Shown: positions 8,414 to 38,652 of the stretch, piece by piece | Layout: the number at the start of each line of letters is the position of its first letter | Numbering within the stretch: the first letter of the stretch is position 1 | Assembly: GCA_028290665.1 (NCBI GenBank) | Contig: JAQGJK010000021.1 | Span: forward strand, 1-64,000 | Reading direction: 5' to 3' | Length of the DNA: 64,000 nucleotides | From: Devosia sp. | Lineage (GTDB): Bacteria; Pseudomonadota; Alphaproteobacteria; Rhizobiales; Devosiaceae | Program-made: the position numbers and the translations under genes | Notes under the pieces: model-generated | Databases searched by the model: none | Seen by the model: the letters and a program-made list of their open reading frames with translations, nothing else | Told to the model about the DNA's origin: nothing

Positions 8414-9192
8414 GGCGCAGCCGGGCGGTCGAGCCGCGGAATGTCGAACTCGGCGAGGATGGCGTCGACCTCTGCCCTGCGCCGCAAAAGCGCGTCTTCG
8501 ATTTCCATGCGCAGTTCGCCCTCATCGAGACGCACCGCAACGTGGACATCGAATACCTGCGCGATTCCCGACGAATCTTCGAGTTCGCGGAGCGGCGTGA
8601 CTGTCAGTGGCACTGGCGCACGGGCCGCAAAAAAACCGGCGACCGGACCCCAGATAATGGCGACATCGATTTCGCCCTTGGCAACCGCGTCGACCAGAGC
8701 CGACCGGTCGCCAGCGGGGCCGGATTCAACGAAGGCGCTGTAAAGGCGCACCGTAGTTCCGATACCTCGTGCCGCAAGCGCCGAGGCTGGAGGCGTTCCG
8801 AACCCCGTGCCAATCGCGAGCTCGCGCAAGACCGGATCGTCGTAGCTTCTCACAGGGCTCGCGTCGGCACGGGTAACGAAGGCAAAGGTGGAGCGATAGT
8901 ATGGCGGATAGGCATTGAGCACGGCTGTGCTGCGGAGCATGCTCATCACCAGGTCGCACCTACCCTCATCCAGCGCGTCAACAACCGAGCCTTGCGGTTC
9001 GGACCACCAGAGATAATCGACGGTGCGGCCAAGCTCGGCTCCGAGCAATTCGGCAAGGTGGTTTTCAAAACCATCGCCGGCACGGTTGGAGAACGGCAAA
9101 TTGTCCGGGTCGGCGCAGACTCTGAGATCTGCGGCAGCGGCACTGCCCAGCATCGCCAGCCCCATCGTGGCGCTAAGGAAGGCCGAACACAT
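8410..9192 (-). CDS. quinoprotein dehydrogenase-associated periplasmic substrate-binding-like protein (XoxJ/MoxJ-like)
   Basis: Signal peptide then ADLRVCADPDNLPFSNRAGDGFENHLAELLGAELGRTVDYLWW; start in the ORF at Met encoded at 9192; overlaps dehydrogenase. Confidence 0.85.
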   Translation of the reverse strand: MCSAFLSATMGLAMLGSAAAADLRVCADPDNLPFSNRAGDGFENHLAELLGAELGRTVDYLWWSEPQGSVVDALDEGRCDLVMSMLRSTAVLNAYPPYYRSTFAFVTRADASPVRSYDDPVLRELAIGTGFGTPPASALAARGIGTTVRLYSAFVESGPAGDRSALVDAVAKGEIDVAIIWGPVAGFFAARAPVPLTVTPLRELEDSSGIAQVFDVHVAVRLDEGELRMEIEDALLRRRAEVDAILAEFDIPRLDRPAAP

Positions 9193-10987: not shown

Positions 10988-11558
10988 CTGGTACGGGGCT
11001 GTTTATATTTGCACAGCAACTGAAGTAACCTTGGCTGCAAGAAAGCGCGAAAATAGCCGCGGCATCCAAAGCGCCATCGCTTCACCGAGCCACAAGCGCC
11101 AAGCATACGCTCGCACATTGGTACCGGCACTAACCAAGGTTAAGTAAGGAAGCCGGGCTACATGGGGAAAGGGTGTATGGCTCGGACTCTCCGGGGCCAA
11201 TACCGGCCCTGCTCGGTCAGTCCTGACACCTGGCGTCGCCACGCCGACACCCGCTGGAATACTCCACCGTTAGCGAATGGTTGCGTGTCGGATTCCGAGC
11301 ATCTCAGAGGATATATCGCCTCTGAGCTGGGTTATGGTTGGCAGTATTCAAGGCGCGCTCGGGGTCACCATCTGTTTTCCCGGCATCGATGCGGTAAATG
11401 CGCTTTCGTATCGATCGATCGGTGCGCAGTCGAAGCATGCATACAACTTCAGATCGTTCGACTGGTCCACAACTCGGCGGTGATAGTCGAACAGTCCGCA
11501 GCAAAATGGTGGCGCAAACCCTCGATCAGCTTGTCGACGACGGGCTTTATCCGGGTCC

Positions 11559-11813
11559 TTAAGTCCCTCTTAGGTACAGCCGCTCATCCGCTTCGAATTT
11601 GAGCGTCAGAATATGCACGCTGAGACCCTCCTCGTTTCGCACCCACATTTGTAGGTGTCGCAGCGGTCCATCGGCGGGAATTCGATCTTTCGCGAGTTCG
11701 ACGATTGCCGTAGACGCCTCCTTGTAAGCTGCTTGATCGTCGGGCAATTCCAGACCCTCATCGTCGACAATTCTGTCGTCACCGTCGTCGCTGTCGAAAA
11801 AATATCGAGGCAT
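11559..11813 (-). CDS. DUF6894-like small protein
   Basis: MPRYFFDSDDGDDRIVDDEGLELPDDQAAYKEA pattern. Confidence 0.7.
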   Translation of the reverse strand: MPRYFFDSDDGDDRIVDDEGLELPDDQAAYKEASTAIVELAKDRIPADGPLRHLQMWVRNEEGLSVHILTLKFEADERLYLRGT

Positions 11814-11866
11814 TTCGCTGCTCTATTGGCTCATCCAGCGGAATTGTGACATTGCGGCGCGATGCC

Positions 11867-12622
11867 TTACCGCGGTTCGTTTCGAAGGTGCAGATACGTG
11901 TCGTCGAACTCGGCAAACTGCGCGATGCGGTCCCAATCGGGGAAACGCAGCACCTCACCTTGCCACTCTATAAGGTCCTTTCGGCGCAACTCCTGCAGCG
12001 TCCGATTGACGTGAACCGGGGACAGGCCGAGCATGTCAGCCAAGTTGTCCTGGGTAACTGGAAAGCTGAACGCGAAATCACGCGCCAGGCCGACAGCCTG
12101 GAGCAGCATGTAGATTTCGCAGAACAAGTGTGCCGCGTGTGCTGGAGCCGGTAGACGCCCCATGCAGACGAGCCATTCTCGATGAATTGCCCCATCGATC
12201 AAGGCCATCAGGTTGAACATCCGCATCAGGTGAGACTGGGTCTCGCTGATTGACTTGAGCGTCGCGTGCGGGACCCGCGCCACGCGGCAGGGGGTGAGCG
12301 TCGCAACGCCATGGTCCATTTCTTTCATCAGGAAACTGTGAAAGTCGACGAAATCGCCAGGCACGTGGATAGCAGTGATCTGGCGCGCACCGGATTCCAC
12401 CATGCGATATCGGGCTGCGTATCCTTCTACCAACAAGGTGCTAGCGACCGGGCGGTCCCCTTCGCGAATAAAATCGACGCGAACGTCGATTACTGACTGC
12501 CCCTCGAGCATAGCCTCGACGATCCGTTCCTCGTCCACCGAAATTGTATCTCGACAACGGAGCTTTTTGAGCAGGCTCGCAGCCGGGTACCCGTTCGCCT
12601 CGAGATGTATCGGTAACTGCAT
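11867..12622 (-). CDS. Crp/Fnr family transcriptional regulator
   Basis: Cyclic-nucleotide-binding-like fold and C-terminal HTH (TQDNLADMLGLSPVHVNRTLQELRRKDLIEW). Confidence 0.88.
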   Translation of the reverse strand: MQLPIHLEANGYPAASLLKKLRCRDTISVDEERIVEAMLEGQSVIDVRVDFIREGDRPVASTLLVEGYAARYRMVESGARQITAIHVPGDFVDFHSFLMKEMDHGVATLTPCRVARVPHATLKSISETQSHLMRMFNLMALIDGAIHREWLVCMGRLPAPAHAAHLFCEIYMLLQAVGLARDFAFSFPVTQDNLADMLGLSPVHVNRTLQELRRKDLIEWQGEVLRFPDWDRIAQFAEFDDTYLHLRNEPR

Positions 12623-12900
12623 TGCGCATCCTTCAACAACGCGAAGGCCATACCAGACCGATTTCGAACCGTCAGGCTTGGTACGAAACGATACGATGCG
12701 GTCTTGCGGTTTTGCCCATCATGTCCGCCAGCGCAATATTTGACTCTGTCCACCTCTGCAACGCCGTCCGTAAGCGCAACCTGCGAGTTGCGACTTCGCG
12801 CCAGGGATTGTCCGAAAACATACAGAGACGGCCTGCCTAACATATGGTGGTGAGTCATCAGAGTCGCGGGTGCAGAGAGGCGTGCAAGGCGGTGGATGAC

Positions 12901-13251
12901 ATGAAGGCATTGGTTGTTGAAGACGAGTGGCTCATTGCCATCGAGACATGTTCGAGGCTGGACAGCCTTGGATGTGAAATTCTCGGACCTGCGAGCACGT
13001 GCGAGGAAGCGCTTGATCTCATAGACCAGGATCGACCAGATTTTGCGCTTCTCGACACGACGCTTGGGGAGGAAACGTCCCGGTCTGTGTTCTATCGATG
13101 TGTCGCGCTTGGCATCCCGACGATCATTGTCTCAGGGCACATGCGTCGCGATCTGCCGGACTTTTGTATCGGCGCACCCTACATTTCAAAACCAATCGAG
13201 CAAAACCGCTTCGATGGGGTCATCCGCGCTTATCTCGGTGAGATGGCATGA
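12901..13251 (+). CDS. stand-alone response regulator receiver domain protein
   Basis: MKALVVEDEWLIAIETCSRLDSLGCEILGPAS...FALLDTTLG...ISKPIE. Confidence 0.8.
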   Translation: MKALVVEDEWLIAIETCSRLDSLGCEILGPASTCEEALDLIDQDRPDFALLDTTLGEETSRSVFYRCVALGIPTIIVSGHMRRDLPDFCIGAPYISKPIEQNRFDGVIRAYLGEMA

Positions 13252-13339
13252 TCGATCTTGTCGATGCTCCCTGCCCGCGCGGCTGGCGTTCTTTGGGCAC
13301 GTCTACGGCGATGACTTCCCTACCTGAGCGCGTTGCATC

Positions 13340-13567
13340 ATGAAGCGCTACTTCTTCCACATCCGCGAACAGGAACTCTTGATTATCGACAACGAGGGGA
13401 CGGAGCTTCCGGATCTTGCCGCGGCTACTCATGAAGCCATCGCCAGTGCTCGAGAGCTGGTCGTATTCAGCGGCACCCTGCCAATCGGAGGCAGCATGGA
13501 AATCTGTGACGTAGACGGGAACCTGCTCAGGGCCATCTCCATCGCAGACGTCTTTCACATGCCTTGA
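13340..13567 (+). CDS. DUF6894-like small protein
   Basis: MKRYFFHIREQELLIIDNEGTELPDLAAATHEA. Confidence 0.75.
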   Translation: MKRYFFHIREQELLIIDNEGTELPDLAAATHEAIASARELVVFSGTLPIGGSMEICDVDGNLLRAISIADVFHMP

Positions 13568-13603
13568 CGGTGTTTATAGCGAAAGTTCTTTAGAAAGCGA
13601 AAG

Positions 13604-13816
13604 ATGCGGACGTATCGAATCCTTGAGATGAAGCTGGGCACCGATGAATCGCTTCGCGAAATTCGTGTAACCGGCACCACCCCGCAAGCTGCGGCGTCAG
13701 AGTCGCTCGGCGAGGAGCTTGGCCGCCAGGGTGCTGCCAGCTACCTTCGCGCCAAATGCTATTATGAAGCCTCGGACGGCACTATGACGATGGTCCGACT
13801 ATATCGGCACGTTTGA
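13604..13816 (+). CDS. hypothetical small protein
   Basis: 70 aa ORF in line with flanking small genes. Confidence 0.5.
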   Translation: MRTYRILEMKLGTDESLREIRVTGTTPQAAASESLGEELGRQGAASYLRAKCYYEASDGTMTMVRLYRHV

Positions 13817-17264: not shown

Positions 17265-18123
17265 GCGGTTCGTCTTTCTTGTTGGTATAGGCGACCGGCT
17301 GAGACATCTCGCTACTCTCCAGAGCGACCGCGAAATCCCGGCTGTTGTGGTGCCAGGCGAACCGGCCGTCAGGGGTCAGGAGGATCCCTCCAGCCTCCCC
17401 TTCGATTGCCTCCACTTGGTCTATGGCTTCGAGCAGCGCTTCATCGGGCGATGCACTGGCCAGCGCGTGCATGACGCGGGCGGCAAGCATTTTACGGGCA
17501 ATGTGTTCGCCGTCGCCAGAAAATGCCACTCCCCCGATCTGGTCGTCCACGTAGTATCCGCAACCTGGCACCGGCGAGTCTCCGATCCGTCCAGGCGCAC
17601 AACCATCCAGTCCTCCAGTCGAAGTCCCAGCGGCCATTCTCCCTCGCTGATCGAGGGCGACGCAGCCAACAGTGTCATGAGTTCCGTTTTTGCGAAGCCG
17701 CGCAGCTGGTGCGATGAGATCAGCCGGGTTGCAAAGTTCAAGGCGCTTTTCTGCAGCGAACCGCCGCGCGCCTTCTGCCGCCAGCAGGATCGGCTCCTCA
17801 TGCAGCATTGCACGCGCAACGCTGACCGGATGCCTGACCCCCTTGATCACGGCAACTGCGCCGACGTTGAATCCGGTGCCCTCCATGACCCCCGAACACA
17901 TCTCGACCTCTCCATCGGAGTTCAGGGCGGCGCCGTACCCGGCATTGAACGTCGGATCGGATTCGAGTTCTCGGATAGCCGCCTCGACAGCGTCAACCGC
18001 ACCTCCGCCGGCCGCGAGTATTGCCCGGCCTGCCTCGATGGCAGCAAGGCAACCGCTGCGGTGAGCATCGGCCTCATCGGGTTCAATTTCCTTTGCACCG
18101 CCGTGCAGGATAAGGGCCCACAT
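17257..18123 (-). CDS. isoaspartyl peptidase/L-asparaginase (Ntn hydrolase)
   Basis: LILHGGAKEI, NAGYGAALNSDGEVEM, HDTVGCVALD nucleophile motif, STGG; start at Met 18123. Confidence 0.9.
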   Translation of the reverse strand: MWALILHGGAKEIEPDEADAHRSGCLAAIEAGRAILAAGGGAVDAVEAAIRELESDPTFNAGYGAALNSDGEVEMCSGVMEGTGFNVGAVAVIKGVRHPVSVARAMLHEEPILLAAEGARRFAAEKRLELCNPADLIAPAARLRKNGTHDTVGCVALDQRGRMAAGTSTGGLDGCAPGRIGDSPVPGCGYYVDDQIGGVAFSGDGEHIARKMLAARVMHALASASPDEALLEAIDQVEAIEGEAGGILLTPDGRFAWHHNSRDFAVALESSEMSQPVAYTNKKDEPHE

Positions 18124-20963
18124 CACACCGCCTCGACGAGGTGCAAATCCAGATCTTTTGTCGGGCACACAACTGGCTTCGCCTTGTCGAAGGCAACGAC
18201 CTGTTTCCAGGCTGCTTCCACATGATCGACGGTGAGAAAGACCAGGTCGCCCTCCTGTGCCAGTCGCATGGCCACGTCGATCGCCTCGGTTTCGGGGAGT
18301 ACGACATGGATGCGGCTCGACGAGCACCCGGTAGACAGGGCGCCCTGCCGCAAGAGCGCCGCTAGCGTTTGAGGTTGGCGTCCCCGCAGTTCGTCGTCTT
18401 CCTTGAACACCACGACGTCGAAAATCCTTGCTGCCAATGCACCCATTTCAAGGATGTCGGAATCTCGGCGGTCACCGGCGATGCCGATAAGGCCAATCGT
18501 GCGCTGGTACTTGGGACGCATCTGATCGACCAGTTTGCCGATGGCTTGCAGCCCCGCCGGGTTGTGGCAGTAATCGACAATCGTTTTGAAGCCATGGCCA
18601 TCAAAGACATTCATTCTCCCGGGGGACTGCTCGAACGACGTCGTAAACGTCTGCAATCCCGACCGTATCGTCTTCAGCTGCACGCCGTGACAGTACGCCA
18701 TTGCAACGGCGGCAAGGGCGTTCGCAACGTTGAACTCTGCCCAGCCCTCGAAGGTGGCCGGGATTTCGGCCGCCTTCATCAGGTAAATCGACTCGTTGTT
18801 CTCATAGATGACAAGATCCCAGCCATCCTCCATCCGCTCGCGGCAGACAGCCCGCCCGCCTTCGGCGATATGCTGCCTCAAGAATTCCGGCCGCTCGCTT
18901 TCGTCCCTGAGCGAGAAATAGCAGATACTGCCGCCTGCGTGGCGCGCCATGTCGGCCGTGTATTCATTGTCCGCGTTGAGAATGCTCCAGCCGGAGCGTC
19001 GCACCGATTCCGTCACGACCGACTTTACCGCCGCAAGATCCTCGATCGTGTCGATACCGCGCAGCCCCAGATGGTCCTCGGTGACGTTGAGGACAGCGCC
19101 GATATCGCATTCGTCAAAGGCAAGGCCCTCGCGCAGCATGCCGCCGCGAGCGCATTCGAGAACGGCAACATCGACGCTCGGTTCTCGCAACACGATGCGC
19201 GCGCTTTGCGGGCCGGAACAGTCACCCGCCGCGATTTGTCGGCTATTCAGATAGATGCCAGTGGTTGAGGTCAAACCGACATTGACCCCGGTCTGTTCCA
19301 AAATATGCCCCAACATCCGGGCCGTCGTCGATTTTCCGTTGGTGCCGGTGATCGCAAAAATGGGAATGCGGCCATCGGTCCCTTTGGGGAACAGCAGTTC
19401 GAGTACCGGACGGGCCACGTTCCGAGGACGCCCCTGAAACGGCTCGAGATGCATGCGGAAACCCGGCCCCGCATTGACCTCGATGATCCCCCCGCCGGTC
19501 TCGAGGACTGACTTCCGGATATCCGGGCAGACAAAATCGATACCGGCGATATCAAGCCCGACAATCTGGGCGGCCCGTCGCGCGATCAAGGCGTTATCGG
19601 GGTGAATTTCATCGGTGCGGTCAATCGCCGTCCCCCCGGTCGAGAGGTTTGCGGTCGGGCGCAGCATCACGGTTTGCCCGGACGCCGGAACACTGGTGAG
19701 GTCCAGGTTCGCGCGACGTAGAAAATATTCGACGGACTCATCGGTCTCGATGCGCGTAAGCACCGACGAATGCCCCTGGCCGCGCCGCGGGTCGAGGTTC
19801 ACTTCGGCGATCAACTCGGCAATGGAGCTATGACCGTCCCCCACCACATGAGCCGGGATGCGCTCGGCGAGGGCGACTACCTCGCCACCGATGACCAGGA
19901 TGCGATGGTCGGCGCCGGCGAAGAATTGCTCGACGATGACCGTGCGGCCATGTTCGCGAGCCTGCTCGAAGCCCCAGCGAACCTGCTCCGCATTAGCGAG
20001 ATCGATGTTCACGCCGCGGCCGTGATTGCCGTCAAGCGGTTTCGTCACGACCGGATAACCAAGCCGGGCTGCGGCGGCACAGGCTTCATCGGCCGTGCGC
20101 ACGAGTTCGCCTTTCGGCACCGGCAATGCCGCTTGGCTAAGGAGCAGTTTGGTGAGATCTTTGTCGGCGGCAATGCCGGTGGCGACTTCGGACGTCAAAT
20201 CGCTGCAGCTTGCGCAGATCCGCTTTTGATGCCGGCCCTGGCCGAGCAGAACGAGGCTCGACTCATCTTGTCTGGTGAAGGGGATGCCCCGCCGCTCTGC
20301 TTCGTGGACAAGCGACGCGGTGGTGGGGCCAAAGGCTCTGCCGGCAGCAAGCGAGCGAAGGCGATCTAACCCCGCCGAAAAATCGAACGATTCTGCGGAT
20401 TTTTCAGCGTCCAAAATTGTTGCCGCCAGAATTTCATCGTCCGGGGCCGTTTCGACAATTCGGTCGGGGTCTCCGAGGCCTTGCAGATTTGCCGGAAGCA
20501 CGGAGTCGATCAGTTCAAGGGCAAGCCGCCCGGCTGCTAACCCCACCTGCTCGTCAATGAATGAATACATGACGTAATATCGCCCGGGTTGACCCTTGAC
20601 CGAGCGCGTCTTTCCCCGCGTCACCCGGTCGCCGACCATGCTTTGCAGTTCGAGGGCTACATGTTCGGCGACGTGGCCGAGCCAGGTCCCTTCACGCATC
20701 CGCCGAATAAAGCCCCCGGCTTCCCCATAGCTGCAACCATGCTCGTCCAAGCCAGGGAGAACGTGAGTCAGCGCTTCGGTAAAACCGGGCAGTTTGTCGG
20801 TTGGAAAGGCCTCCAAGGAACCGAGGTCGAGTTCTATCCGGATCATCGGCAGGTGACTGTAAAGATGAGGGCCACGAAAAACCCGTGCTTCGTTGACACG
20901 CATGGAAACGTGCTGCGCAATGGCAGCCTGAGCTTCGCTCATTTGAATATTCCTTTGAGCCAA
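18123..20963 (-). CDS. cphA: cyanophycin synthetase
   Basis: N-terminal domain, ATP-grasp (KPLDGNHGRGV...NAGPGFRMHLEP) and Mur-ligase domain (GTNGKSTTARMLGHIL), 946 aa. Confidence 0.95.
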   Translation of the reverse strand: MAQRNIQMSEAQAAIAQHVSMRVNEARVFRGPHLYSHLPMIRIELDLGSLEAFPTDKLPGFTEALTHVLPGLDEHGCSYGEAGGFIRRMREGTWLGHVAEHVALELQSMVGDRVTRGKTRSVKGQPGRYYVMYSFIDEQVGLAAGRLALELIDSVLPANLQGLGDPDRIVETAPDDEILAATILDAEKSAESFDFSAGLDRLRSLAAGRAFGPTTASLVHEAERRGIPFTRQDESSLVLLGQGRHQKRICASCSDLTSEVATGIAADKDLTKLLLSQAALPVPKGELVRTADEACAAAARLGYPVVTKPLDGNHGRGVNIDLANAEQVRWGFEQAREHGRTVIVEQFFAGADHRILVIGGEVVALAERIPAHVVGDGHSSIAELIAEVNLDPRRGQGHSSVLTRIETDESVEYFLRRANLDLTSVPASGQTVMLRPTANLSTGGTAIDRTDEIHPDNALIARRAAQIVGLDIAGIDFVCPDIRKSVLETGGGIIEVNAGPGFRMHLEPFQGRPRNVARPVLELLFPKGTDGRIPIFAITGTNGKSTTARMLGHILEQTGVNVGLTSTTGIYLNSRQIAAGDCSGPQSARIVLREPSVDVAVLECARGGMLREGLAFDECDIGAVLNVTEDHLGLRGIDTIEDLAAVKSVVTESVRRSGWSILNADNEYTADMARHAGGSICYFSLRDESERPEFLRQHIAEGGRAVCRERMEDGWDLVIYENNESIYLMKAAEIPATFEGWAEFNVANALAAVAMAYCHGVQLKTIRSGLQTFTTSFEQSPGRMNVFDGHGFKTIVDYCHNPAGLQAIGKLVDQMRPKYQRTIGLIGIAGDRRDSDILEMGALAARIFDVVVFKEDDELRGRQPQTLAALLRQGALSTGCSSSRIHVVLPETEAIDVAMRLAQEGDLVFLTVDHVEAAWKQVVAFDKAKPVVCPTKDLDLHLVEAV

Positions 20964-28404: not shown

Positions 28405-29733
28405 GTGAGTATGACTTTCCCGCACGGCCACGGGCTCCGGGAGACGCAGCTGACCAATCTCATTCCCGCCACGGTACTGCGCATGCTGCTGCTGCTGCGC
28501 GCACGCTCCGAAAGCACCGATTTCTCCCAGCGACTCACGGCTCCGGTCGACAATGCCCTGCCGCCGCGCATCCGGCCGCGGCAGCGGGCAAGTGCGGATT
28601 CGGCGCGCGGGCTGTGGGCGCAGTTGCGCGAGCATGGACATGCTTCGGCAATCGATGAGCAGGCTATTGCGGACCCGGCCAGTCTTGATCTGGCGGAAGC
28701 CTATGGCCGTAATATCGAGAGTTTCATCGGCACGGTGAAAGTGCCGCTGGGTGTGGTCGGGCCCCTGCGCATCAACGGCCTCAATGCGCATGGCGATTAT
28801 TACGTGCCGCTGGCGACCACCGAGGCAGCGCTCGTTGCCTCTTATGGGCGCGGCGCCGAGGTCGCGGCTCAGGCGGGCGGTATTACTTCGGCGATGATCG
28901 GTGAGGGCGTGTTGCGGACGCCGGCCTTCGTGTTTCGCGACATGCTCGAAGCCGGCATCTTCATCAACTGGGTCGCCCAAAATGTCGACGCGTTGAAGAC
29001 GGCTGCCGAGGCGACAACACACCACGGCAAGCTGATCACCATCGAGCCCTTCATGGACAGCGACATCGTGTTCCTCATCTGCCGCTATACGACCGGCGAT
29101 GCGGCGGGGCAGAACATGGTGACGGTAGCGACCGAGGCGCTGTGCGCCCATATCGTCGCGCATATGCCGGCCGCGCCTCGGCATTGGTTCATCGAAGGCA
29201 ATTTCTCCGGCGACAAGAAAGCCTCCTATCTGGGGCTGCATATGGGACGGGGCCGCAAGGTCACGGCGAGCGTTGAACTGGCCGACGCGCTGATCCGCAA
29301 ATGGCTGCATGTCGAGCCCGAGGCGATGCTGGCCTATGGTCGCGTCGCTGCCCTGGGGTCGACGCTGAGCGGACAGCTTGGTGCCCAGGCGCATTATGCC
29401 AATGGACTTGCCGCCTTCTATATCGCCACCGGCCAAGACGCCGCCTGCGTTGCCGAGTCCGCTGTCGGTTTCACCCGGGCCGAACGGCGCGACGGCGGCG
29501 TGTTCTTCTCGGTGACCATGCCCAATATCGTCGTTGGTTCGGTCGGCGGCGGCACCGGCTTGCCCAGTCAGGCCGCAGCGCTCGGCATTATGGGCCTTCG
29601 GGGCGAAGGCAAGGCGGCAGCCCTAGCTGAGGTAGTTGGCGCACTCTGCCTGTGCGGCGAAATCTCCATCATCGCCGCCATCGCGGCCGGGCATTTCACC
29701 CGCGCCCATGCCAAGCTGGCACGGCTGCGATGA
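28405..29733 (+). CDS. hydroxymethylglutaryl-CoA reductase family protein
   Basis: VKVPLGVVGPL, PLATTEAALVASYGRG, FSGDKKASYLGLHMGRGRKV, ATGQDAACVAES, AAGHFTRAHAKLAR: catalytic Glu, Lys, Asp and His motifs present. Confidence 0.9.
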   Translation: MSMTFPHGHGLRETQLTNLIPATVLRMLLLLRARSESTDFSQRLTAPVDNALPPRIRPRQRASADSARGLWAQLREHGHASAIDEQAIADPASLDLAEAYGRNIESFIGTVKVPLGVVGPLRINGLNAHGDYYVPLATTEAALVASYGRGAEVAAQAGGITSAMIGEGVLRTPAFVFRDMLEAGIFINWVAQNVDALKTAAEATTHHGKLITIEPFMDSDIVFLICRYTTGDAAGQNMVTVATEALCAHIVAHMPAAPRHWFIEGNFSGDKKASYLGLHMGRGRKVTASVELADALIRKWLHVEPEAMLAYGRVAALGSTLSGQLGAQAHYANGLAAFYIATGQDAACVAESAVGFTRAERRDGGVFFSVTMPNIVVGSVGGGTGLPSQAAALGIMGLRGEGKAAALAEVVGALCLCGEISIIAAIAAGHFTRAHAKLARLR

Positions 29734-30680
29734 CACTGGCAGCGTCGCATCCCGAGGCCGGCGGGAGCCTTTGGCGCCGACTCTGGCTCTATCAGGCGGA
29801 ACGCTTTCCGCTGGGAAAGACGGCAGTGTTGCTGGCGGCCTTCTCTGCCTCGAGCATCAGCCTCTCTGCGCACCTGGCCGGCCGGCCGCTACCGGATTGG
29901 GGTGTGTTCGTCGCCGCCTGGCTGGTCGCCATCATTTTCCTCTTTCAGCTCCGCGCCTGCGATGAGTTCAAGGACCTGGAGGATGACCGGCTGTATCGAC
30001 CCGAGCGGCCCATCCCCTCCGGTCTCGTCAGCCTGCGCCTGATCCTGTCGCTGGCCGCTCTGGCGGCCCTCCTCGCCATCGGCCTCACCCTCGCCATCAC
30101 GCCGATGCTGTTGTTGCCGCTGGCGCTGATCTGGGTCTGGCTGGGCCTGATGACGGCGGAGTTCTTCGTCCCCGCCTGGCTCAAGGCGCGGCCATTTTTC
30201 TACCTCGTCTCGCATATGGCCATCATGGCCTTTATCGATCTCTACCTCACCGGTGCCGAGTGGGTCCCGCATGGATGGCTGCCGCCTGCCGGCATGTGGG
30301 CCTTTCTGGCGCTGAGCCTCGTCAATGGCTGCGTGCTGGAAATCGGCCGCAAGACCTGGGCGCCAGCCAGCGAAAAGGCTGGCGTCGAAACCTATTCGTC
30401 CCTCCTTGGCCCGACCCGTTCGGCCCAGCTGTGGCTTGTCGTAGGGGCGCTTGCGTGGCTGCTGCTGCTGTCCATCGGCTTCCTCGTCGGTGCGCCGCTA
30501 ACGATTGGCGGCGTCAGTGCTGTCCTGCTTGCTGTCATGGCTGCCACGGTGTGGCGCTTCATCGGCGACCCGACTGCAGACGGTCAGCGCCGCATCGATG
30601 GTTTTGCCGGTATCTGGGTACTCGCCTGCTATCTACTCGCCGGCGCTGTGCCGTTGCTGCCCGCTGGACTGACGCCGTGA
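29730..30680 (+). CDS. UbiA family prenyltransferase
   Basis: Polytopic; LRACDEFKDLEDDRLYRPERPIPSG; ATGA overlap with HMGR stop. Confidence 0.8.
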   Translation: MTLAASHPEAGGSLWRRLWLYQAERFPLGKTAVLLAAFSASSISLSAHLAGRPLPDWGVFVAAWLVAIIFLFQLRACDEFKDLEDDRLYRPERPIPSGLVSLRLILSLAALAALLAIGLTLAITPMLLLPLALIWVWLGLMTAEFFVPAWLKARPFFYLVSHMAIMAFIDLYLTGAEWVPHGWLPPAGMWAFLALSLVNGCVLEIGRKTWAPASEKAGVETYSSLLGPTRSAQLWLVVGALAWLLLLSIGFLVGAPLTIGGVSAVLLAVMAATVWRFIGDPTADGQRRIDGFAGIWVLACYLLAGAVPLLPAGLTP

Positions 30681-33133
30681 CCGGTGCGCTCTTTGCCATG
30701 GATTCTGGGCAGGGTGCCGACAGCGTCGGCGGCAAGGCGGCCGTGCTGATGCAACTGGTCGCCAAGGGCTTCGATATCCCCGCCTTCCTGTCGTTGACGC
30801 CGGATGCTTTCGTTGACGGCATCCTCGCGGCGGATCACGTTTCAGCTCTCATACAGCAACTGCCGCTCCTTGGCCCTGGCCCCTACGCAGTTCGCTCCTC
30901 GGGGCGCGATGAAGACGGTCAAAGTAATTCTCACGCCGGGCAATTCCTTTCGGTGCTGGACGTCGCCGCCGGTGACGTCCCGGTCGCTGCCGCACGTGTG
31001 TGGCGCAGCGGCCTTGCCGACAATGTCGCGGAGTATCGCAACGTGCAGGGGCTGGCAGGGGATGGCGGGGCGCCGGCTGTGCTGATCCAGCAAATGGTCG
31101 ATGCCCGCTGTGCCGGCGTGGCCTTCACCGCCGACCCGGTCAGCGGTCGCACCGACCGTATCGTCGTCTCGGCCATTGCCGGCCTAGCCGATCGTCTGGT
31201 CGGCGGCGAGGAGGATGGCGAGACCTACAGCATCGACAAGGCCACTGGCGCCACGCTGGAACAGCCCGAGGCGCCGATCCTGGTGCCTGCCGATCTCGTC
31301 GCGTTGCATCGATTGGGCCGGCAGCTTGAAGCCGCGCTGGGCGGACCACAGGATTTTGAATGGGCCATCGAGGGTTCGCGGCTGCGCCTGCTGCAGGCCC
31401 GTCCGATCACTACGGCCCTGCTCGCGCCAGCCATTGTCGACGAGCATCTGCTGGTGTTCGACAATTCCAACATCGTCGAAAGCTATCCCGGCCTTGTCTC
31501 GCCGCTGACCTATAGCTTCGCGCAATACGCCTATTCACGGGTCTACCGCGCCTTTGTTCGCGTCGTGGGGGTTGGCGAAGACACGGTTCGCGACAATGCC
31601 GCCGTGTTCGACAACATGCTCTCGCGGATTGATGGAAGGGTCTATTACAACCTCGGCAACTGGTATCGGGCGCTGGCCCTGCTCCCAGGATTTTCCATCA
31701 ATCGTGGCTTCATGGAAACCATGATGGGCGTCAACGAGAAGCTGCCGCCCGATTTCGTGACCGCCATGGCGCCGTCGCCCGCCGGGTCGATGGCCAAGGC
31801 GCGCGAGTGGCTGCGCCTCGGGGGCGTGGCCGTGCGGCTGCTGTGGGCGGCGCTCCGGCTCGATGGCACGATCAAGGACTTCTACCGCCGCCTCAATGCC
31901 GCGCTGGCCGAGCCGGCTGCCAGTTACGACCGACTGCCCACCTCGGCCCTTGCAATGCGCTATCGTCGCATCGAGGCCGATCTGCTCGATCGTTGGGACG
32001 CGCCGCTGATTAACGACTTCCTTTGCATGATTGCCTTCGGCGCCTCCCGCAACCTGCTGGAGCGCTGGGGTGGTCCCGCCGGCCTCGAACTGCATAACGA
32101 GGCCATGATCGGGCAAGGGGATATGATTTCAGCCGAACCGGCCCGCCGCATCCAGGCCATGGGACGCCTTGCCACACGAGATGCGGCGCTGATCGAGGCG
32201 CTTGCCGAGGGCAAGGGCCATCTATTGGCGACCAGCCCAACGCTCCAGCAGTCCGTGGTCGACTATCTCGACAAATTTGCCGAGCGCTGCACCGAGGAAC
32301 TCAAGCTCGAAAGCGTGACGTTGGACCGCGATCCATCCCCGCTGTATCGGGCCATCGCCGCCGCGGCCACAGCGCCCGCGGTGCGGTCCGAACCGGCACC
32401 GGCGGCGATCACGCTCGGGACGCTCCTCGCCGGCAAGCCAGTGCGGCGGAGGCTGGCTGGCTTCGCACTGGGCTGGGCCAAGCGCCGCGTGCGCGACCGC
32501 GAGAACCTGCGCTTCGAGCGCACCCGCATCTTTGGTCGCGCCCGTAGTCTGCTCCGTGCCGTCGGCCGCCAATTCCACGCCCAAGGGCTGATCGAGGCCG
32601 GTGACGACGTGTTCTTCCTCACCATCGGCGAGGTGTTGGGCGCAATCGAGGGCTTCGCGGTGGATTCCGACCTTGCCGCCATTGTCCGTCTGCGCAAAGC
32701 CGAGACGGAAGCGGCTGCCGCGCGTCCCGAGCCCGGCGAGCGCCTTTTGGTGCGCGGCGGCGCCGTCGCCGGCCTGCGATCGCGTCCTGCCGCTGCCGTT
32801 CGCCCCATCGATACCGCGACCACTCGAAGCGGCACCGGCTGCAGCGCTGGCAAGATCACCGCCGTGGCGCGCGTGGTGCGCGACCCACGGGCGCAGGGCC
32901 TGCAGCGCGGCGAGATTCTCGTGGCGCGCCACACCGATCCGGGCTGGATCGCCATTTTCAGCAATGCCGCAGCGATCGTCGTCGAGCGGGGCAGTCTCCT
33001 GTCGCATTCGGCAATCGTGGCGCGCGAACTGGGCATTCCCTGCGTAGTGGGCCTCAAAGGCGCCATGGACTGGATCGAGGACGGCCAGACCATCGAGGTC
33101 GACGGCGCCACAGGCCAGGTGAGGAAACTCTGA
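30677..33133 (+). CDS. PEP-synthase/Rph-like phosphotransferase (PEP/pyruvate-binding ATP-grasp plus phosphohistidine swivel domain)
   Basis: SVGGKAAVLMQLVAKGFDIPAF, AVRSSGRDEDG, DFEWAIEGSRLRLLQARPI, LLSHSAIVARELGIPCVVG; GTG start overlapping UbiA stop. Confidence 0.85.
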   Translation: MTGALFAMDSGQGADSVGGKAAVLMQLVAKGFDIPAFLSLTPDAFVDGILAADHVSALIQQLPLLGPGPYAVRSSGRDEDGQSNSHAGQFLSVLDVAAGDVPVAAARVWRSGLADNVAEYRNVQGLAGDGGAPAVLIQQMVDARCAGVAFTADPVSGRTDRIVVSAIAGLADRLVGGEEDGETYSIDKATGATLEQPEAPILVPADLVALHRLGRQLEAALGGPQDFEWAIEGSRLRLLQARPITTALLAPAIVDEHLLVFDNSNIVESYPGLVSPLTYSFAQYAYSRVYRAFVRVVGVGEDTVRDNAAVFDNMLSRIDGRVYYNLGNWYRALALLPGFSINRGFMETMMGVNEKLPPDFVTAMAPSPAGSMAKAREWLRLGGVAVRLLWAALRLDGTIKDFYRRLNAALAEPAASYDRLPTSALAMRYRRIEADLLDRWDAPLINDFLCMIAFGASRNLLERWGGPAGLELHNEAMIGQGDMISAEPARRIQAMGRLATRDAALIEALAEGKGHLLATSPTLQQSVVDYLDKFAERCTEELKLESVTLDRDPSPLYRAIAAAATAPAVRSEPAPAAITLGTLLAGKPVRRRLAGFALGWAKRRVRDRENLRFERTRIFGRARSLLRAVGRQFHAQGLIEAGDDVFFLTIGEVLGAIEGFAVDSDLAAIVRLRKAETEAAAARPEPGERLLVRGGAVAGLRSRPAAAVRPIDTATTRSGTGCSAGKITAVARVVRDPRAQGLQRGEILVARHTDPGWIAIFSNAAAIVVERGSLLSHSAIVARELGIPCVVGLKGAMDWIEDGQTIEVDGATGQVRKL

Positions 33134-34230
33134 TGGCGGAAGCCGATATCGCCGGTCGCGCGCGCTTCGACGCCATCCGCTACGCCCAGCTTTGGGAGGA
33201 TGCCGATGTGTTGGTCGATGCCCTCGCAACGCCACCCGGCGCGACATTGGTCTCCATCGCCTCGGCTGGCGACAATGCGCTGGCCATGCTGCTGCTCGAC
33301 CCGGCCCGCGTCGTCACCATCGACCTGTCGCTGGCGCAGATCGCCTGCCTTGCCATTCGCATCGCTGCCTATCGCTGCCTCGATCATGCGGGTTTTCTCG
33401 AACTGATGGGCTCGCGCCCGTCATCGCGACGCGGCGAATTGCTCGACACGGTAGCCCGCGGGCTCGACGCGACCGACCAGGCATTCTGGGCGGAGCGGCG
33501 CGGTGGGGTCATCCGCTATGGTCTGGGGGGTGTCGGCAAGTTCGAGAACTATTTCCGCATCTTCCGCACCTATCTGCTGCCACTGGCGCAAAGCCGGTCC
33601 ACCATCGACGAAGTGTTCCGCACGAAGCCGAAGCCTGAGCGCGCAGCGTTCTTTGATCGTCGCTGGAACAACTGGCGCTGGCAACTGACGCTCAAGCTGT
33701 TCTTTTCCAATTTCGTCATGGGTCGGCTGGGGCGCGACCCGGCCTTCTTCGATCATGTCGAGGGCAGCCTTGCCGACCATGTCGCGCGGCAATTGCGCCA
33801 TGCCGGTGTCGATCTCGATCCGGCCGACAACCCATATCTGCACTGGATTCTCAAGGGGACACACGGCACGGCACTGCCCTTGGCCTGGCGGCCGGAGCAT
33901 TTCGCGACCATCCGTTCGCGCCTCGACCGGCTGGAACTGCGGTGCGGCGCGCTTGAGGCTTTCGTGGCCACCGGCGAGACAGCCGATGGCTTCAACCTCT
34001 CCGATATCTTCGAGTATATGCCAACCGACATTTTTACCTCGGTCTATGGCTCCATCCTTGGTGCGGCGAATCCCGGGGCCCGGTTGGTCTACTGGAACAT
34101 GATGGTGCCCCGCCGCGTGCCCCCGGCTTTTGCCGATCGCGTCGAGCGCCTCGTGGCCGTGGAGACTACGGGTCGGGCCGCGGACAAAGCATTCTTTTAT
34201 TCCGATTTCGTGGTGGAGCGGGTGCGGTGA
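33133..34230 (+). CDS. DUF3419 family protein (BtaA-like S-adenosylmethionine:3-amino-3-carboxypropyl transferase)
   Basis: RYAQLWEDADVLVDAL, SIASAGDNALAMLLLDPARVVTIDLSLAQIACLAIRIAAYR, FNLSDIFEYM. Confidence 0.8.
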   Translation: MAEADIAGRARFDAIRYAQLWEDADVLVDALATPPGATLVSIASAGDNALAMLLLDPARVVTIDLSLAQIACLAIRIAAYRCLDHAGFLELMGSRPSSRRGELLDTVARGLDATDQAFWAERRGGVIRYGLGGVGKFENYFRIFRTYLLPLAQSRSTIDEVFRTKPKPERAAFFDRRWNNWRWQLTLKLFFSNFVMGRLGRDPAFFDHVEGSLADHVARQLRHAGVDLDPADNPYLHWILKGTHGTALPLAWRPEHFATIRSRLDRLELRCGALEAFVATGETADGFNLSDIFEYMPTDIFTSVYGSILGAANPGARLVYWNMMVPRRVPPAFADRVERLVAVETTGRAADKAFFYSDFVVERVR

Positions 34231-35528
34231 GCCTGACGCCGGCCGACGGCATTGTCATCGCGGCGATCCTCCTGGCCATTCCGGCGCTGATGCTGCTGGT
34301 TCGTGTGTTCGGCCGACGCTTTGACTGGAATCCGGAGGTCAGCCGCAAGCTGGTGCATGTCGGGACCGGTAGCCTGGCACTGACTTTTCCGCTGCTGTTT
34401 TCCAATCCGCTGCCAGTCCTGGTCCTCCTCGCCATTGCCATACCGTTGATGTTCGCCATCCGCAGCGGGCTGCTGGGTGGCTTGGGCGCGGCCCTGCATG
34501 GCGTCGAGCGCCAGTCCTATGGCGAGATCTATCTCGGCTTGGCCATCGCCATCACCTTCCTGCGGGCCGACGAGCAGCCGGTGCTGTACGTGCTGCCCAT
34601 CCTTGTCATCACCCTTTCCGACACCGCCGCCGCCCTGGTCGGCACCGCCTATGCGCGGCAGCGCTTTGCGGTAGAGGGCGGCGCCAAGAGCATCGAAGGT
34701 GTGATCGTCTTCTTCGTCGTCACCTGGCTGGCCAGCCTTATCATGCTGGTGCTGATGACCGATGCGGCGCCGCTGAACCTGGTGCTGATCTCAATGCTGC
34801 TGGCGGCGTTCTGCGCGCTGGTCGAGGTCGATTCCTGGCGCGGGCTCGACAATCTCTTCGTACCCATCGGCGCCGTCCTGCTGCTCGCCCGGTATCTCGG
34901 CAGCAGTCCCGCCGAATTGGCCTCCAGCGCCGCCGTCTTCCTGCTTTTCCTCGGTTTAGTGCTGGCCATGGCCCCGATGCTGCGCCTGCCGCAGCAGGCC
35001 GCGCGCGCCCATGCCATCCTGCTGTTTCTCATTCTCTCCATCGTCTCGCTGCATAATGTCATCCTGCCAGCGCTGGCCATCATTGCTCATTTGGCTGCCC
35101 GCACCTTGCGCCCCTGCCATAGCGAACGTCCCGATTTCGACCTGTTGTATGTCGCGGCCATGGTGTCGTTGTTCTGGATGTTCGTGGGTGATGCGGTCGA
35201 TCGGTCGGTCATCAGCCTTTTCAACCTCACCTTTGCTGGCGCGGGCCTCGGTTTTCTCGTCCTGGTGCTGGTCGGCTTTTGGCGCCTGCTCCTGGTGCCG
35301 TCCATGATCGTGGCCGGGGCTATCCTGCTTTGGGTGACCGAGACCAATCTGCCCTATTCGCGCTGGTTCATGCCAAGCGCTCTCGAAGTCGCCGTCGCGC
35401 TGAGTGTCACGGTTGCGCTGCCGATATGGCGTCCGGGTTGGTTCGACAGCCAACGCAGCCTGCGCATCTTTGCCCTGGCCATGCTTGTACCGCTGGTCCT
35501 GTGCCTTCGTGGAGTGCTCATGCCATGA
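34227..35528 (+). CDS. dolichol/phytol kinase-like (CTP transferase superfamily) membrane protein
   Basis: EVSRKLVHVGTGSLALTFPLLF, LSDTAAALVGTAYARQRF, KSIEGVIVFFVVT; long polytopic C-terminus. Confidence 0.75.
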   Translation: MSLTPADGIVIAAILLAIPALMLLVRVFGRRFDWNPEVSRKLVHVGTGSLALTFPLLFSNPLPVLVLLAIAIPLMFAIRSGLLGGLGAALHGVERQSYGEIYLGLAIAITFLRADEQPVLYVLPILVITLSDTAAALVGTAYARQRFAVEGGAKSIEGVIVFFVVTWLASLIMLVLMTDAAPLNLVLISMLLAAFCALVEVDSWRGLDNLFVPIGAVLLLARYLGSSPAELASSAAVFLLFLGLVLAMAPMLRLPQQAARAHAILLFLILSIVSLHNVILPALAIIAHLAARTLRPCHSERPDFDLLYVAAMVSLFWMFVGDAVDRSVISLFNLTFAGAGLGFLVLVLVGFWRLLLVPSMIVAGAILLWVTETNLPYSRWFMPSALEVAVALSVTVALPIWRPGWFDSQRSLRIFALAMLVPLVLCLRGVLMP

Positions 35529-36364
35529 CCGAACCCCAGTCGATAAGCCGCCCCGGCGCCGCGCTTCGCCTTTATCGCGACGCCCCCGCCTGGGATGGCA
35601 TGCGCTGCGCCGCCATCGGTGGCCTGGTCTTCGAGGAACCCGGAGCGGCTGCCCAATTGCTCGTGGAGACTCTGGCTGTGCTCAAGGCCGAGGGTTTTGG
35701 CGGCGCGCTGGGGCCGATGGATGGCGATACCTGGCATAGCTACCGCACCGTCACCGAGTCTGACGGCTCTCCCGCCTTCGCGCTCGAACCGCGTAGCGGC
35801 GCGCTTGACTATGCGGCGCTGCTGGCCGCCGGCTTCCTGCCCGTTTCGAACTATGTCTCCTCGCGCGCCCGTCTCGCCGACACGTTGGGCGAGGAACTGG
35901 TGACCATGCCCGGCATCACCGTCACCGCCTGGGATGGCACTGGCGCCGAGAAACTGATCGCCAACGTCTTCGCCATGTCAGGCAGTGCCTTTGCCGGCAA
36001 TCATTTTTTCAAGCCTATCGGCCTTGATGCCTTCCTCGCGCTGTATCGCCCCATCCTGCCGATGCTCGATCCCCGTCACATCCTCTTTGCTCATACCGAA
36101 GCGGGCGATCTGCTCGGCTTTCTCTTCGGCTATCCCGATCGCCTGGCACCGGGCAATCCGGCGGCAGTGCTGAAGACCTATGCCAGCGGCCGGCGCGGCG
36201 TCGGCCATCTGCTGGCCGATCAGTATCATCGCCGGGCCATTGCCATGGGGCACGAGGAGGTCATCCACGCGCTGATGCATGAGACCAATGTGTCGAGGGC
36301 GCGCAGTGTCCGCCACAATGCCCAGGTCTTTCGCCGCTATGCGCTAATGGGTCGAAGGCTCTAG
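35525..36364 (+). CDS. GNAT-like acyltransferase domain protein
   Basis: ATGA overlap; GFLFGYPDRLAPG...GVGHLLADQYHRRAIAMGHEEVIHALMHETNVSR resembles a GNAT fold. Confidence 0.6.
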   Translation: MTEPQSISRPGAALRLYRDAPAWDGMRCAAIGGLVFEEPGAAAQLLVETLAVLKAEGFGGALGPMDGDTWHSYRTVTESDGSPAFALEPRSGALDYAALLAAGFLPVSNYVSSRARLADTLGEELVTMPGITVTAWDGTGAEKLIANVFAMSGSAFAGNHFFKPIGLDAFLALYRPILPMLDPRHILFAHTEAGDLLGFLFGYPDRLAPGNPAAVLKTYASGRRGVGHLLADQYHRRAIAMGHEEVIHALMHETNVSRARSVRHNAQVFRRYALMGRRL

Positions 36365-36366
36365 CT

Positions 36367-37791
36367 TTGAATCTCATCGCGGGCTTCCTCGAAACGGCCG
36401 AGCGGCACGGCAGTCGGACGGCCATAATTGCCGGCAATGGCGAGACAATCAGCTTTGCCGACCTCGCCCGCCGCTCCGGCGCTCTGGCGCAAGGCTGGCA
36501 TCGCGCGGGCTTGCGCCAAGGCGACCGTGTGCTCGTCGCCATGTCGGTGGGAATCGACCTTTACGCCTCCATCGCGGCGCTCTGGCGGGTCGGTGCCACC
36601 ATCGTCTTTCCTGAACCGGCCCTGGGCCTGGCCGGCCTGCGCCATGCCGTGCGCCTGACGCGGCCACGGGCGTTGCTGACCAGCGGCGCCTATGGGCTCA
36701 TCCGCCTCGTCTTGCCAGAACTCTGGGGTGTCGGGCTCCATCTTGGTCTCGATACCGGAAGTCCCGGCGATCTGCTGACGGCGTCGACGCCCGATCACCC
36801 GGCGCTGATCTCATTCACCAGCGGCTCGACCGGCAAGCCCAAGGCTATAGTGCGCAGCCACGGATTTCTCGCCGCGCAGGACGCCGCGCTCGATCCCCTT
36901 ATCGCTCCCGAACGCGAAGACGAGGTTGATCTCGTGGCATTCCCGGTCTTCGTACTCGCCAATCTCGCCCGCGGCACTACCTCGGCCTTGCCTAATTGGT
37001 CACTGCGCGATCCCGGCAGCGCCGATATCGGAAGCATCCTACGTCTGCTCGAAAAGCACCGGGTCACCCGCGCCTTGGTGCCGCCTTCGATCGGCGACGT
37101 CCTGGCCCGCGCTCCCGCCTTGCCGCTGCAGACCGTGCTGACGGGCGGCGGGCCGGTCTTCCCCGATCTGCTCCGCCGCCTGCAGCGTGTCATGCCGAAA
37201 TCAGGCGACACTATCTCGGTCTATGGCTCCACCGAGGCCGAGCCGATCGCCTGGCAGCGTGCCAGCGACATCTCGCCCAGCCAATGGCAGGCCATGGAGG
37301 CCGGTTCGGGACTGTTGGCCGGTCGACCGATCGGTGCCGTGAAGGTCCGGCTGATCAGCGACGAGATCGTGGTGACCGGCGACCACGTCAACAAAAGCTA
37401 CCTGGGCGGACAGGGCGACGCCGACAACAAGATTGCGCTTGAAGGCGCTATCTGGCATCGCACCGGCGACGCCGGCCGTTTGGACGGTGAGGGGCTATTG
37501 TGGCTCAAAGGGAGGCTCTCGGGCCTGTGCAGCGGGGTCTACCCCTTCGAAGTCGAAGTGCCCGCTCGATTGTGGCCTGGTGTGGATCGGACGGCACTGG
37601 TTTCGATTGACGGCAGGCCTGTGCTAGCGATCGAGGGCGATGAAGCCCAACTCGGCGCGTGGAAAGAAGCTGGGTCTGGCATTTGCGTGGATGCTGTGGT
37701 CCGGGTGGAGCACATGCCGATGGATCGGCGGCATCAGTCCAAAATTGACCACTCAACGCTCCGCAAGGTCATGCGGCGGACACTGCGCTGA
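36367..37791 (+). CDS. AMP-dependent synthetase/ligase (OleC-like)
   Basis: LISFTSGSTGKPKAIVRSHG, ISVYGSTEAEPIA, WHRTGDAGRLDGEGLLWLKGR; TTG start. Confidence 0.85.
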   Translation: MNLIAGFLETAERHGSRTAIIAGNGETISFADLARRSGALAQGWHRAGLRQGDRVLVAMSVGIDLYASIAALWRVGATIVFPEPALGLAGLRHAVRLTRPRALLTSGAYGLIRLVLPELWGVGLHLGLDTGSPGDLLTASTPDHPALISFTSGSTGKPKAIVRSHGFLAAQDAALDPLIAPEREDEVDLVAFPVFVLANLARGTTSALPNWSLRDPGSADIGSILRLLEKHRVTRALVPPSIGDVLARAPALPLQTVLTGGGPVFPDLLRRLQRVMPKSGDTISVYGSTEAEPIAWQRASDISPSQWQAMEAGSGLLAGRPIGAVKVRLISDEIVVTGDHVNKSYLGGQGDADNKIALEGAIWHRTGDAGRLDGEGLLWLKGRLSGLCSGVYPFEVEVPARLWPGVDRTALVSIDGRPVLAIEGDEAQLGAWKEAGSGICVDAVVRVEHMPMDRRHQSKIDHSTLRKVMRRTLR

Positions 37792-37893: not shown

Positions 37894-38652
37894 TGGAAAG
37901 CGTTTCTGGAGGCGCTGATCGCCGAGAAGATTTCGGTTACGCTGGTCGGCTCCACGCGGGCCGACGACATTGTACGCGATGCCGATATTCTTCATCTCTA
38001 CAAGCAAGCCGGTTTTGAACGCTTTCTTCTGGGCATGGAAAATACCGACGAATCGACGCTCAAGCTGATCCGCAAGGGTGGCACCACGACCGCGGATCGG
38101 GAGGCGGTCCGGCAGCTGCGCAAGCACAACATCTTGTCCATGGCGACATGGGTATCTGGCTTCGACGACCAAACGGACGCCGATCTACTCCGTGGTTTGC
38201 GCCAGCTGATTTCCTACGATCCCGATCAGATCCAGGCGCTGTATGTAACTCCGCATCGCTGGACCCCCTACTTTCGATTGGCTCAGGATCGCAAGGTCGT
38301 GCAGTTCGATCAGACCCGGTGGGACTACAAACATCAGGTGCTGGCCATGTCGCGCATACCACCCTGGCGGCTGTTTCTTTGGGTCAAGTTCATCGAAGCG
38401 TGCGCACAGTTGCGACCGCGCTCGCTGTTGCGGTTGGCCTGGAACCGCGACGCAAAAATCCGTCATGCCATCCGCTGGTACTATCGAATGGGGCGACGGG
38501 TGTGGTTCCACGAAATCTTCAGCTTTCTGTTCCGCGATCGCTATGGGGAAGACGGCAGAAGCGTGGGAGAGTTCTTGGGCGCTCCGCAAGATGATGAAGA
38601 GGAAGCATCTCGCACCGCTTTACGACCTGGCAAACAGATCCACAGTAGCTAG
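37894..38652 (+). pseudogene. bchE: truncated bchE-like (anaerobic Mg-protoporphyrin IX monomethyl ester cyclase) C-terminal fragment
   Basis: WKAFLEALIAEKISVTLVGSTRADDIVRDADILHLYKQAGFERFLLGMENTDESTLKLIRKGGTTTADREAVRQLRKHNILSMATWVSGF...DPDQIQALYVTPHRWTPYFR...RWDYKHQVLA; taa immediately upstream in frame; N-terminal radical-SAM Cys motif absent. Confidence 0.65.

Follow-up and report, generated by a model that had tools for sequence, protein, structure and literature searches.

What could be made by an operon in which a homologue of 3-hydroxy-3-methylglutaryl-CoA (HMG-CoA) reductase (HMGR) is joined to a UbiA-superfamily transferase, an ATP dikinase, a DUF3419 protein, a polytopic membrane protein, a GNAT-fold acyltransferase and an acyl ligase? 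These seven genes lie on a 64,000-nucleotide stretch of DNA from Devosia sp. (assembly GCA_028290665.1, contig JAQGJK010000021.1, positions 1 to 64,000), here called the window, which belongs to a genome that is 61% complete and in 28 contigs. A preliminary description made from the letters alone had suggested that the seven proteins would together build an amino-acid-modified prenyl or lipid product. The answer proposed here, which we hold to be an evenly balanced proposition, is that of a self-contained lipid-biosynthesis operon, apparently moving between alphaproteobacteria, in which a fatty-alcohol pathway would meet the transfer of an aminocarboxypropyl group.

The seven plus-strand genes fill positions 28411-37791, each open reading frame being free of internal stops, and the order and overlaps (ATGA, GTGA and TGATG) are those given in the preliminary description (Table 1). 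The first five junctions overlap by 1-4 bp: ATGA between genes 1 and 2 (29730-29733) and genes 5 and 6 (35525-35528), GTGA between genes 2 and 3 (30677-30680) and genes 4 and 5 (34227-34230), and TGATG between genes 3 and 4, with 1 bp shared at 33133. The last junction is a 2-bp gap, followed by the TTG start of gene 7 at 36367. Inside the operon, no promoter or terminator signal rises above shuffled expectation, and the seven genes presumably form one transcript. The block has a GC content of 64-67%, a little higher than most of the window. Matches above the Pfam cut-off are obtained for HMG-CoA_red, UbiA, PPDK_N with PEP-utilizers, DUF3419 and AMP-binding, while the Pfam and NCBIfam profile searches gave no significant match for genes 5 and 6.

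Table 1. The seven genes in the window, the other carriers of the complete operon, and a shorter relative (positions are those of each locus).
Feature	Position	Strand	Details
Gene 1, FcrA-type (HMGR-I homologue) NADPH-dependent acyl-CoA reductase (predicted)	28411..29733	+	440 aa; ATG at 28411, GTG at 28405 also possible; PF00368 1.2e-104
Gene 2, UbiA-superfamily membrane transferase	29730..30680	+	316 aa; PF01040 3.9e-11
Gene 3, phosphoenolpyruvate (PEP)-synthase/rifampin-phosphotransferase/PigC-type ATP dikinase	30677..33133	+	818 aa; GTG start; PF01326 and PF00391
Gene 4, candidate DUF3419/BtaA-like S-adenosylmethionine (SAM) 3-amino-3-carboxypropyl transferase	33133..34230	+	365 aa; PF11899 3.7e-56
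Gene 5, polytopic membrane protein, phytol/dolichol-kinase-like by motif only	34227..35528	+	433 aa
Gene 6, tandem-GNAT-fold N-acyltransferase	35525..36364	+	279 aa; predicted structure
Gene 7, ANL-superfamily AMP-forming acyl ligase	36367..37791	+	474 aa; TTG start; PF00501 4.5e-40
Full operon, L004 and L005			Devosia
Full operon, L006			Rhizobium populisoli
Full operon, L008			Devosia metagenome-assembled genome (MAG)
Full operon, L009, L010 and L011			Hyphomicrobiales/Rhizobiaceae MAGs
Full operon, L013			Erythrobacter ramosus
Full operon, Roseinatronobacter sp. S2 plasmid			Rhodobacterales; spans record origin
Five-gene relative, L032 (in G224)	6810-13658		Order: dikinase, DUF3419, UbiA, GNAT, phosphatidylserine-decarboxylase homologue

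In an alignment with the human (1dq8) and the archaeal (6hr7) HMGR, the gene 1 protein keeps the catalytic residues E138, K269, D343 and H433 (human Glu559, Lys691, Asp767 and His866), which are invariant in the cluster, together with the equivalents of Arg590, Asp690, Lys692, His752 and Asn755. The human positions S684, K735 and L862 are however occupied by E262, A313 and F429, and the changes Ser684 to Glu, Lys735 to Ala and Leu862 to Phe are found in all cluster copies having sequence at these positions (the Roseinatronobacter gene is split at the record origin, and only position 684 is readable). Lys735 forms a salt bridge with the HMG carboxylate, and Ser684 is among the conserved polar contacts (PMC9500038). 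Genuine HMGRs keep all three residues, among them the enzyme encoded by a complete mevalonate operon of Streptomyces (L043). Because both of these HMG-carboxylate contacts are lost in all copies checked, gene 1 would not encode a normal HMGR. The same three positions mark FcrA, an HMGR homologue for which biochemistry has demonstrated the NADPH-dependent reduction of fatty acyl-CoA (C14 and longer), not of HMG-CoA, to the alcohol: Ser684 becomes Glu, the HMG salt-bridge lysine a small residue, and Leu862 a bulky one (PMC11948995). That publication numbers the lysine Lys795, which is taken to be the Lys735 of PMC9500038. The substitutions were noticed in our alignment independently, before the FcrA publication was found. 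In a tree of HMGRs, the gene 1 group is split from the archaeal, human and mevalonate-operon enzymes with 98/97 support, and orphan sequences from Vibrio, Photobacterium, Alteromonas and Sinorhizobium, plus one from Streptomyces, fall on its side. Residues and phylogeny thus make a strong case for gene 1 as an FcrA-type fatty acyl-CoA reductase.

What do the host genomes say? HMG-CoA synthase is absent from all 11 that were searched, with controls working, and mevalonate-diphosphate decarboxylase is nowhere above cut-off in them. Since gene 1 has the FcrA residues and its hosts are without HMG-CoA synthase, acyl-CoA reduction is favored over mevalonate synthesis; both had been offered for the "HMGR" in the preliminary description, and only the former is supported. 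Were gene 1 a true HMGR, its mevalonate could be activated by gene 7 and moved by the GNAT, as in the SidI/SidF-type mevalonyl steps of fungal siderophores, or be phosphorylated on an unusual isoprenoid route. The retained catalytic residues and R590/K692 equivalents would fit such an enzyme, and HMG-CoA lyase is above cut-off in 6 of the 11 hosts, so leucine breakdown may supply HMG-CoA. With the carboxylate contacts gone and the synthase missing, this is nonetheless very unlikely, and the siderophore-type mevalonyl transfer by HMGR, ligase and GNAT was dropped on account of the lost HMG-binding residues. Another use of an FcrA would be to provide fatty alcohol for storage wax esters, a role that has been shown for it with WS/DGAT (PMC11948995). 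Yet of the 12 genomes searched only 3 have WS/DGAT (the window's own being 61% complete), wax-ester synthesis would leave five of the seven genes without a part to play, and we consider this explanation highly improbable. As fcrA is often found without a wax synthase, other pathways are expected (PMC11948995).

Some HMGR homologues outside the operon can be mentioned here. The orphans of Vibrio and Photobacterium (L018, L019, L022), with Asp at 684, Thr or Asn at 735 and Phe at 862, look FcrA-like and not like HMGR. Sinorhizobium plasmids (L023, 8414-13123) carry a homologue without HMG-binding residues within an acyl-CoA carboxylase operon. On an Alteromonas plasmid (L020, 8280-15041), an FcrA-like gene comes a few genes after T_hemolysin, an AMP ligase, a haem-oxygenase-like diiron protein and a short-chain dehydrogenase/reductase, perhaps in a biosynthetic cluster. 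Homology between our operon and this thermostable-hemolysin/AMP-ligase cluster was rejected, the ligase similarity being weak and the GNAT similarity unconvincing.

Is the seven-gene set more than a peculiarity of one strain? A lack of conservation outside this strain would have counted against the preliminary description, but the same genes occur together, in the same order and on the same strand, in nine other genomes or plasmids. With the window copy, the unit is present in ten genomes or plasmids from three orders (Hyphomicrobiales, Sphingomonadales and Rhodobacterales), and this shared order is far beyond chance. Wherever the junctions could be measured they are short or overlapping, mostly by 4 bp. 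The unit is also rare: when 85,462 species genomes were scanned with gene 1 alone, 10 close homologues emerged (59-89% identity), eight of them with all seven genes, and among 40 relatives searched (24 from the same family) gene 1 appears in just one other (G011, a small contig with genes 1-2). In samples of 386 genomes from the class and 399 from the phylum, the operon genes are otherwise absent save for the five-gene relative and lone matches. The rate is about 1 match per 400 genomes sampled. Flanking genes are unshared, except between the nearest relatives L012/L013 and L010/L011, and the idea of conserved flanks was rejected. The operon is rare, its genes are passed on jointly, and it is no core function; the pattern of its occurrence suggests horizontal transfer. 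Among the individual copies, L007 and L012 run into contig edges. That of Devosia sp. A8/3-2 (L004, 12263-17931) has several apparent frameshifts, probably sequencing errors or recent decay. A seeming dikinase-DUF3419 fusion in L008, which would have spoken strongly for a functional link, was discarded: the frame changes across a run of N, and the dikinase has its own stop in another frame.

Genes 2, 3, 4 and 6 are candidates for the core that would build the head group. Gene 4 reaches 191 bits against PF11899 (cut-off 28), and its SAM-binding stretch LVSI-SAGDNALAML is invariant in 8 sequences. In the making of betaine lipids, BtaA, of the same type, transfers 3-amino-3-carboxypropyl from SAM (PMC10491745). 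For gene 6, the GNAT label given at first sight is borne out by structure prediction: the AlphaFold2 model (predicted local distance difference test score, pLDDT, 83.8) has a tandem GNAT fold, and Foldseek returns GNATs (E to 1e-10), including mycothiol synthase and glucosamine N-acetyltransferase. Gene 3 scores only 156 bits against the PEP synthase equivalog TIGR01418, whose cut-off is 740; its dikinase domains are present nonetheless, its phosphohistidine motif LLSH(777)SAIVARE is invariant, and it resembles RedH/PigC. Its nearest solved structure (5fbs, 3.5e-83) is titled phosphoenolpyruvate synthase in the PDB, and is presumably a rifampin phosphotransferase. Gene 2 is above cut-off for PF01040 (43.2 bits against 34.2). 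Its first Asp-rich motif, DExKDxxDDR, is near-invariant, while the second is not Asp-rich and reads E-x-x-R-K...E...V-x-x-YS, of which E-x-x-R-K...E is kept in the five-gene relative too. The nearest solved structure is digeranylgeranylglyceryl phosphate (DGGGP) synthase (6m31, E 5.3e-6).

This five-gene relative (L032) matches the operon in its dikinase (E 2.3e-213), DUF3419 protein (9.8e-128), UbiA (1.2e-23) and GNAT (5.6e-14), and adds a phosphatidylserine-decarboxylase homologue (PF02666 1.7e-47). Its 14.9-kb contig holds no convincing homologue of gene 1, 5 or 7. Because dikinase, DUF3419, UbiA and GNAT are thus kept without the reductase, ligase and kinase-like genes, the relative suggests that the operon consists of an amino-lipid head-group core (genes 2, 3, 4 and 6) and an added fatty-alcohol branch (genes 7, 1 and 5). 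Next to the relative lie a FUSC/HlyD efflux pair and a fusion of a dicarboxylate symporter with a binding protein. Another undescribed context of DUF3419 is an operon on a Rhizobium plasmid (L025, 3817-10155), with ketoacyl synthase III, oxidoreductase, metallo-β-lactamase hydrolase and CoF synthetase. In Streptomyces plasmids (L035, 5559-10936; L037, 4669-13909), AfsA stands with an isoprenylcysteine-methyltransferase-like protein and a dikinase, joined in S. clavuligerus by a UbiA-like protein.

Such neighborhoods raise the question of whether the operon makes a secreted or signaling small molecule instead, the dikinase condensing two building blocks like PigC/RedH to give a prenylated, N-acylated product that is not a structural lipid. 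The resemblance of the dikinase to these enzymes, the Streptomyces plasmids that place it, with or without a UbiA-like protein, beside AfsA and a methyltransferase, and a patchy distribution, as for specialized-metabolite clusters, all agree with this. Nevertheless, the conserved unit has no regulator, exporter, non-ribosomal peptide synthetase or polyketide synthase, DUF3419 and FcrA indicate lipids, and the five-gene variant brings in a phospholipid-type decarboxylase, and we judge the small molecule fairly unlikely.

The remaining two genes would belong to the fatty-alcohol branch. Gene 7 keeps the motifs of its superfamily (A3 SFTSGSTGKPK, A5 YGSTEAEP, HRTGD and the C-terminal DRRHxxKxD lysine). 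It had been called OleC-like, a label that is not supported: gene 7 scores 134.9 bits with the curated NCBIfam OleC model, whose cut-off is 900, the operon has no OleA, OleB or OleD, the best NCBIfam model is the fatty acid CoA ligase NF006754, itself below cut-off, and the nearest sequences are generic acyl-CoA ligases. Gene 5 has invariant motifs of the RKxxHxxxG-, TLSDxxAAL-, KSxEG- and DNLFVP-type, and is predicted as a multi-helix membrane protein (pLDDT 82.8). Its earlier placing among phytol/dolichol kinases could not be confirmed, as no match to them appears in Pfam, NCBIfam, PDB sequence or PDB fold searches; a PhyK fold was rejected, since the confident model finds no PDB match and no significant match in the viral library. 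A kinase role may be suggested by the resemblance of its motifs to those of phytol and dolichol kinases. G151 encodes a PhyK homologue of 221 aa that stands alone, outside any cluster. A plasmid of Streptomyces sp. NBC_01435 (L045, 7772-12684, minus strand) encodes a protein with the FcrA marks that is joined in frame to an APH kinase domain; its neighbors are a GH3 acyl-adenylating enzyme on one side and a thymidylate-kinase-like protein on the other. This unrelated, independent parallel of ligase, reductase and kinase looks like a compact acid-to-alcohol-phosphate module.

How would the seven proteins work together? Gene 7 would activate a long-chain or branched carboxylic acid to the acyl-AMP or acyl-CoA, which gene 1 would reduce with two NADPH to a fatty alcohol, no mevalonate being made; residues and phylogeny give this step good support. 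Gene 5 might then phosphorylate the alcohol or a lipid derived from it, on the model of CTP-dependent lipid kinases. In the core, the dikinase would activate or phosphorylate an acceptor to which UbiA would join a lipid or prenyl chain, and gene 4 would add 3-amino-3-carboxypropyl from SAM to a hydroxyl, like BtaA in betaine lipids. Finally, the amino group would be acylated by the GNAT. Such a route would end in a homoserine-type amino lipid bearing an alkyl chain, possibly a prenyl one as well, and this lipid would probably stay in the membrane since the conserved unit is without an exporter. From the gene content we infer an amino-acid-headed lipid, which is the most economical reading and upholds that much of the product first suggested, the earlier interpretation being only partly supported overall. 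Several points weigh against the scheme. None of the seven genes has a known product or activity, and the tree holds no sequence proven to be an FcrA, some of its long branches meeting so that the inner order is unsure. The UbiA donor is uncertain because the second motif is altered, and the kinase role of gene 5 is without profile or fold support. The five-gene variant was found once only, with a UbiA identity of 29%, and the UbiA and dikinase pair of Streptomyces clavuligerus sits with AfsA and a methyltransferase, a small-molecule-like context and not that of a membrane lipid. Bolder, and doubtful, is the proposal of a new class of bacterial membrane lipid, fatty-alcohol-derived (ether) and/or prenylated, with a 3-amino-3-carboxypropyl head that would be N-acylated here and decarboxylated in the five-gene relative, the core step being carried out by the dikinase-UbiA pair. 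We know of no lipid pathway with such a pair.

Downstream of the operon lies the C-terminal remnant of a BchE-type radical-SAM protein (38035-38652, plus strand; TIGR02026 9.4e-44), broken by an upstream stop and without its N-terminal half, which is the sole trace of a bacteriochlorophyll gene seen nearby. Together with a UbiA weakly similar to chlorophyll synthase and a phytol-kinase-like protein, it could evoke phytol or chlorophyll salvage in phototrophs. This is scarcely credible, as photosynthetic reaction centre genes are present in only 4 of 11 host genomes and the truncated remnant accompanies no other copy of the operon. A short distance upstream, the window also encodes a cyanophycin-synthetase-like protein with ATP-grasp and Mur ligase domains (18123-20963, minus strand).

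Each enzyme type is already known, the true class of gene 1 having been published in 2025, and the chance that a new class of lipid is made here is moderate. The searches turned up no named cluster for the seven genes, in keeping with the first impression of an unrecognized combination; in the open-access literature, to which the search was confined with subscription papers outside it, few papers mention DUF3419 and none describes the operon or its gene combination. FcrA has so far been met in wax-ester settings and in probable ether-lipid ones; here it has a conserved operon to itself, for which an amino lipid is the predicted product. The operon also illustrates how "HMGR" annotations mislead in bacteria without a mevalonate pathway, and ties a DUF3419 aminocarboxypropyl transferase, a dikinase and a UbiA into one testable pathway, expressible as a 9.4-kb unit.

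How does the operon compare with known systems? Like FcrA (PMC11948995), gene 1 has the HMGR catalytic tetrad with the three FcrA substitutions, in hosts without HMG-CoA synthase; unlike it, gene 1, assigned by sequence, lies in a seven-gene operon with UbiA, dikinase, DUF3419 and GNAT, and not beside a wax synthase or AGPS. Gene 4 is a SAM-binding DUF3419 protein of the BtaA type, as in the BtaA/BtaB betaine-lipid pathway, but the operon has no BtaB-like N-methyltransferase (btaB was not searched for elsewhere in the genome), and the GNAT suggests N-acylation. With the bacterial alkyl ether-lipid pathways (ElbD/FarA, or AGPS with FcrA) the proposed route would share the passage from fatty acid through acyl-CoA and fatty alcohol to lipid, whereas the operon lacks AGPS or a PlsC-like gene and those pathways lack UbiA, dikinase and DUF3419. 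The archaeal ether-lipid UbiA (DGGGP synthase) has the first Asp-rich motif in common with gene 2, whose second motif (E-x-x-R-K) is altered, in a similarity that is weak (E 5e-6). Lastly, gene 3 shares with the PigC/RedH and rifampin phosphotransferase dikinases the same two end domains and the catalytic histidine, but it falls far under the curated cut-offs and stands in a different gene context.

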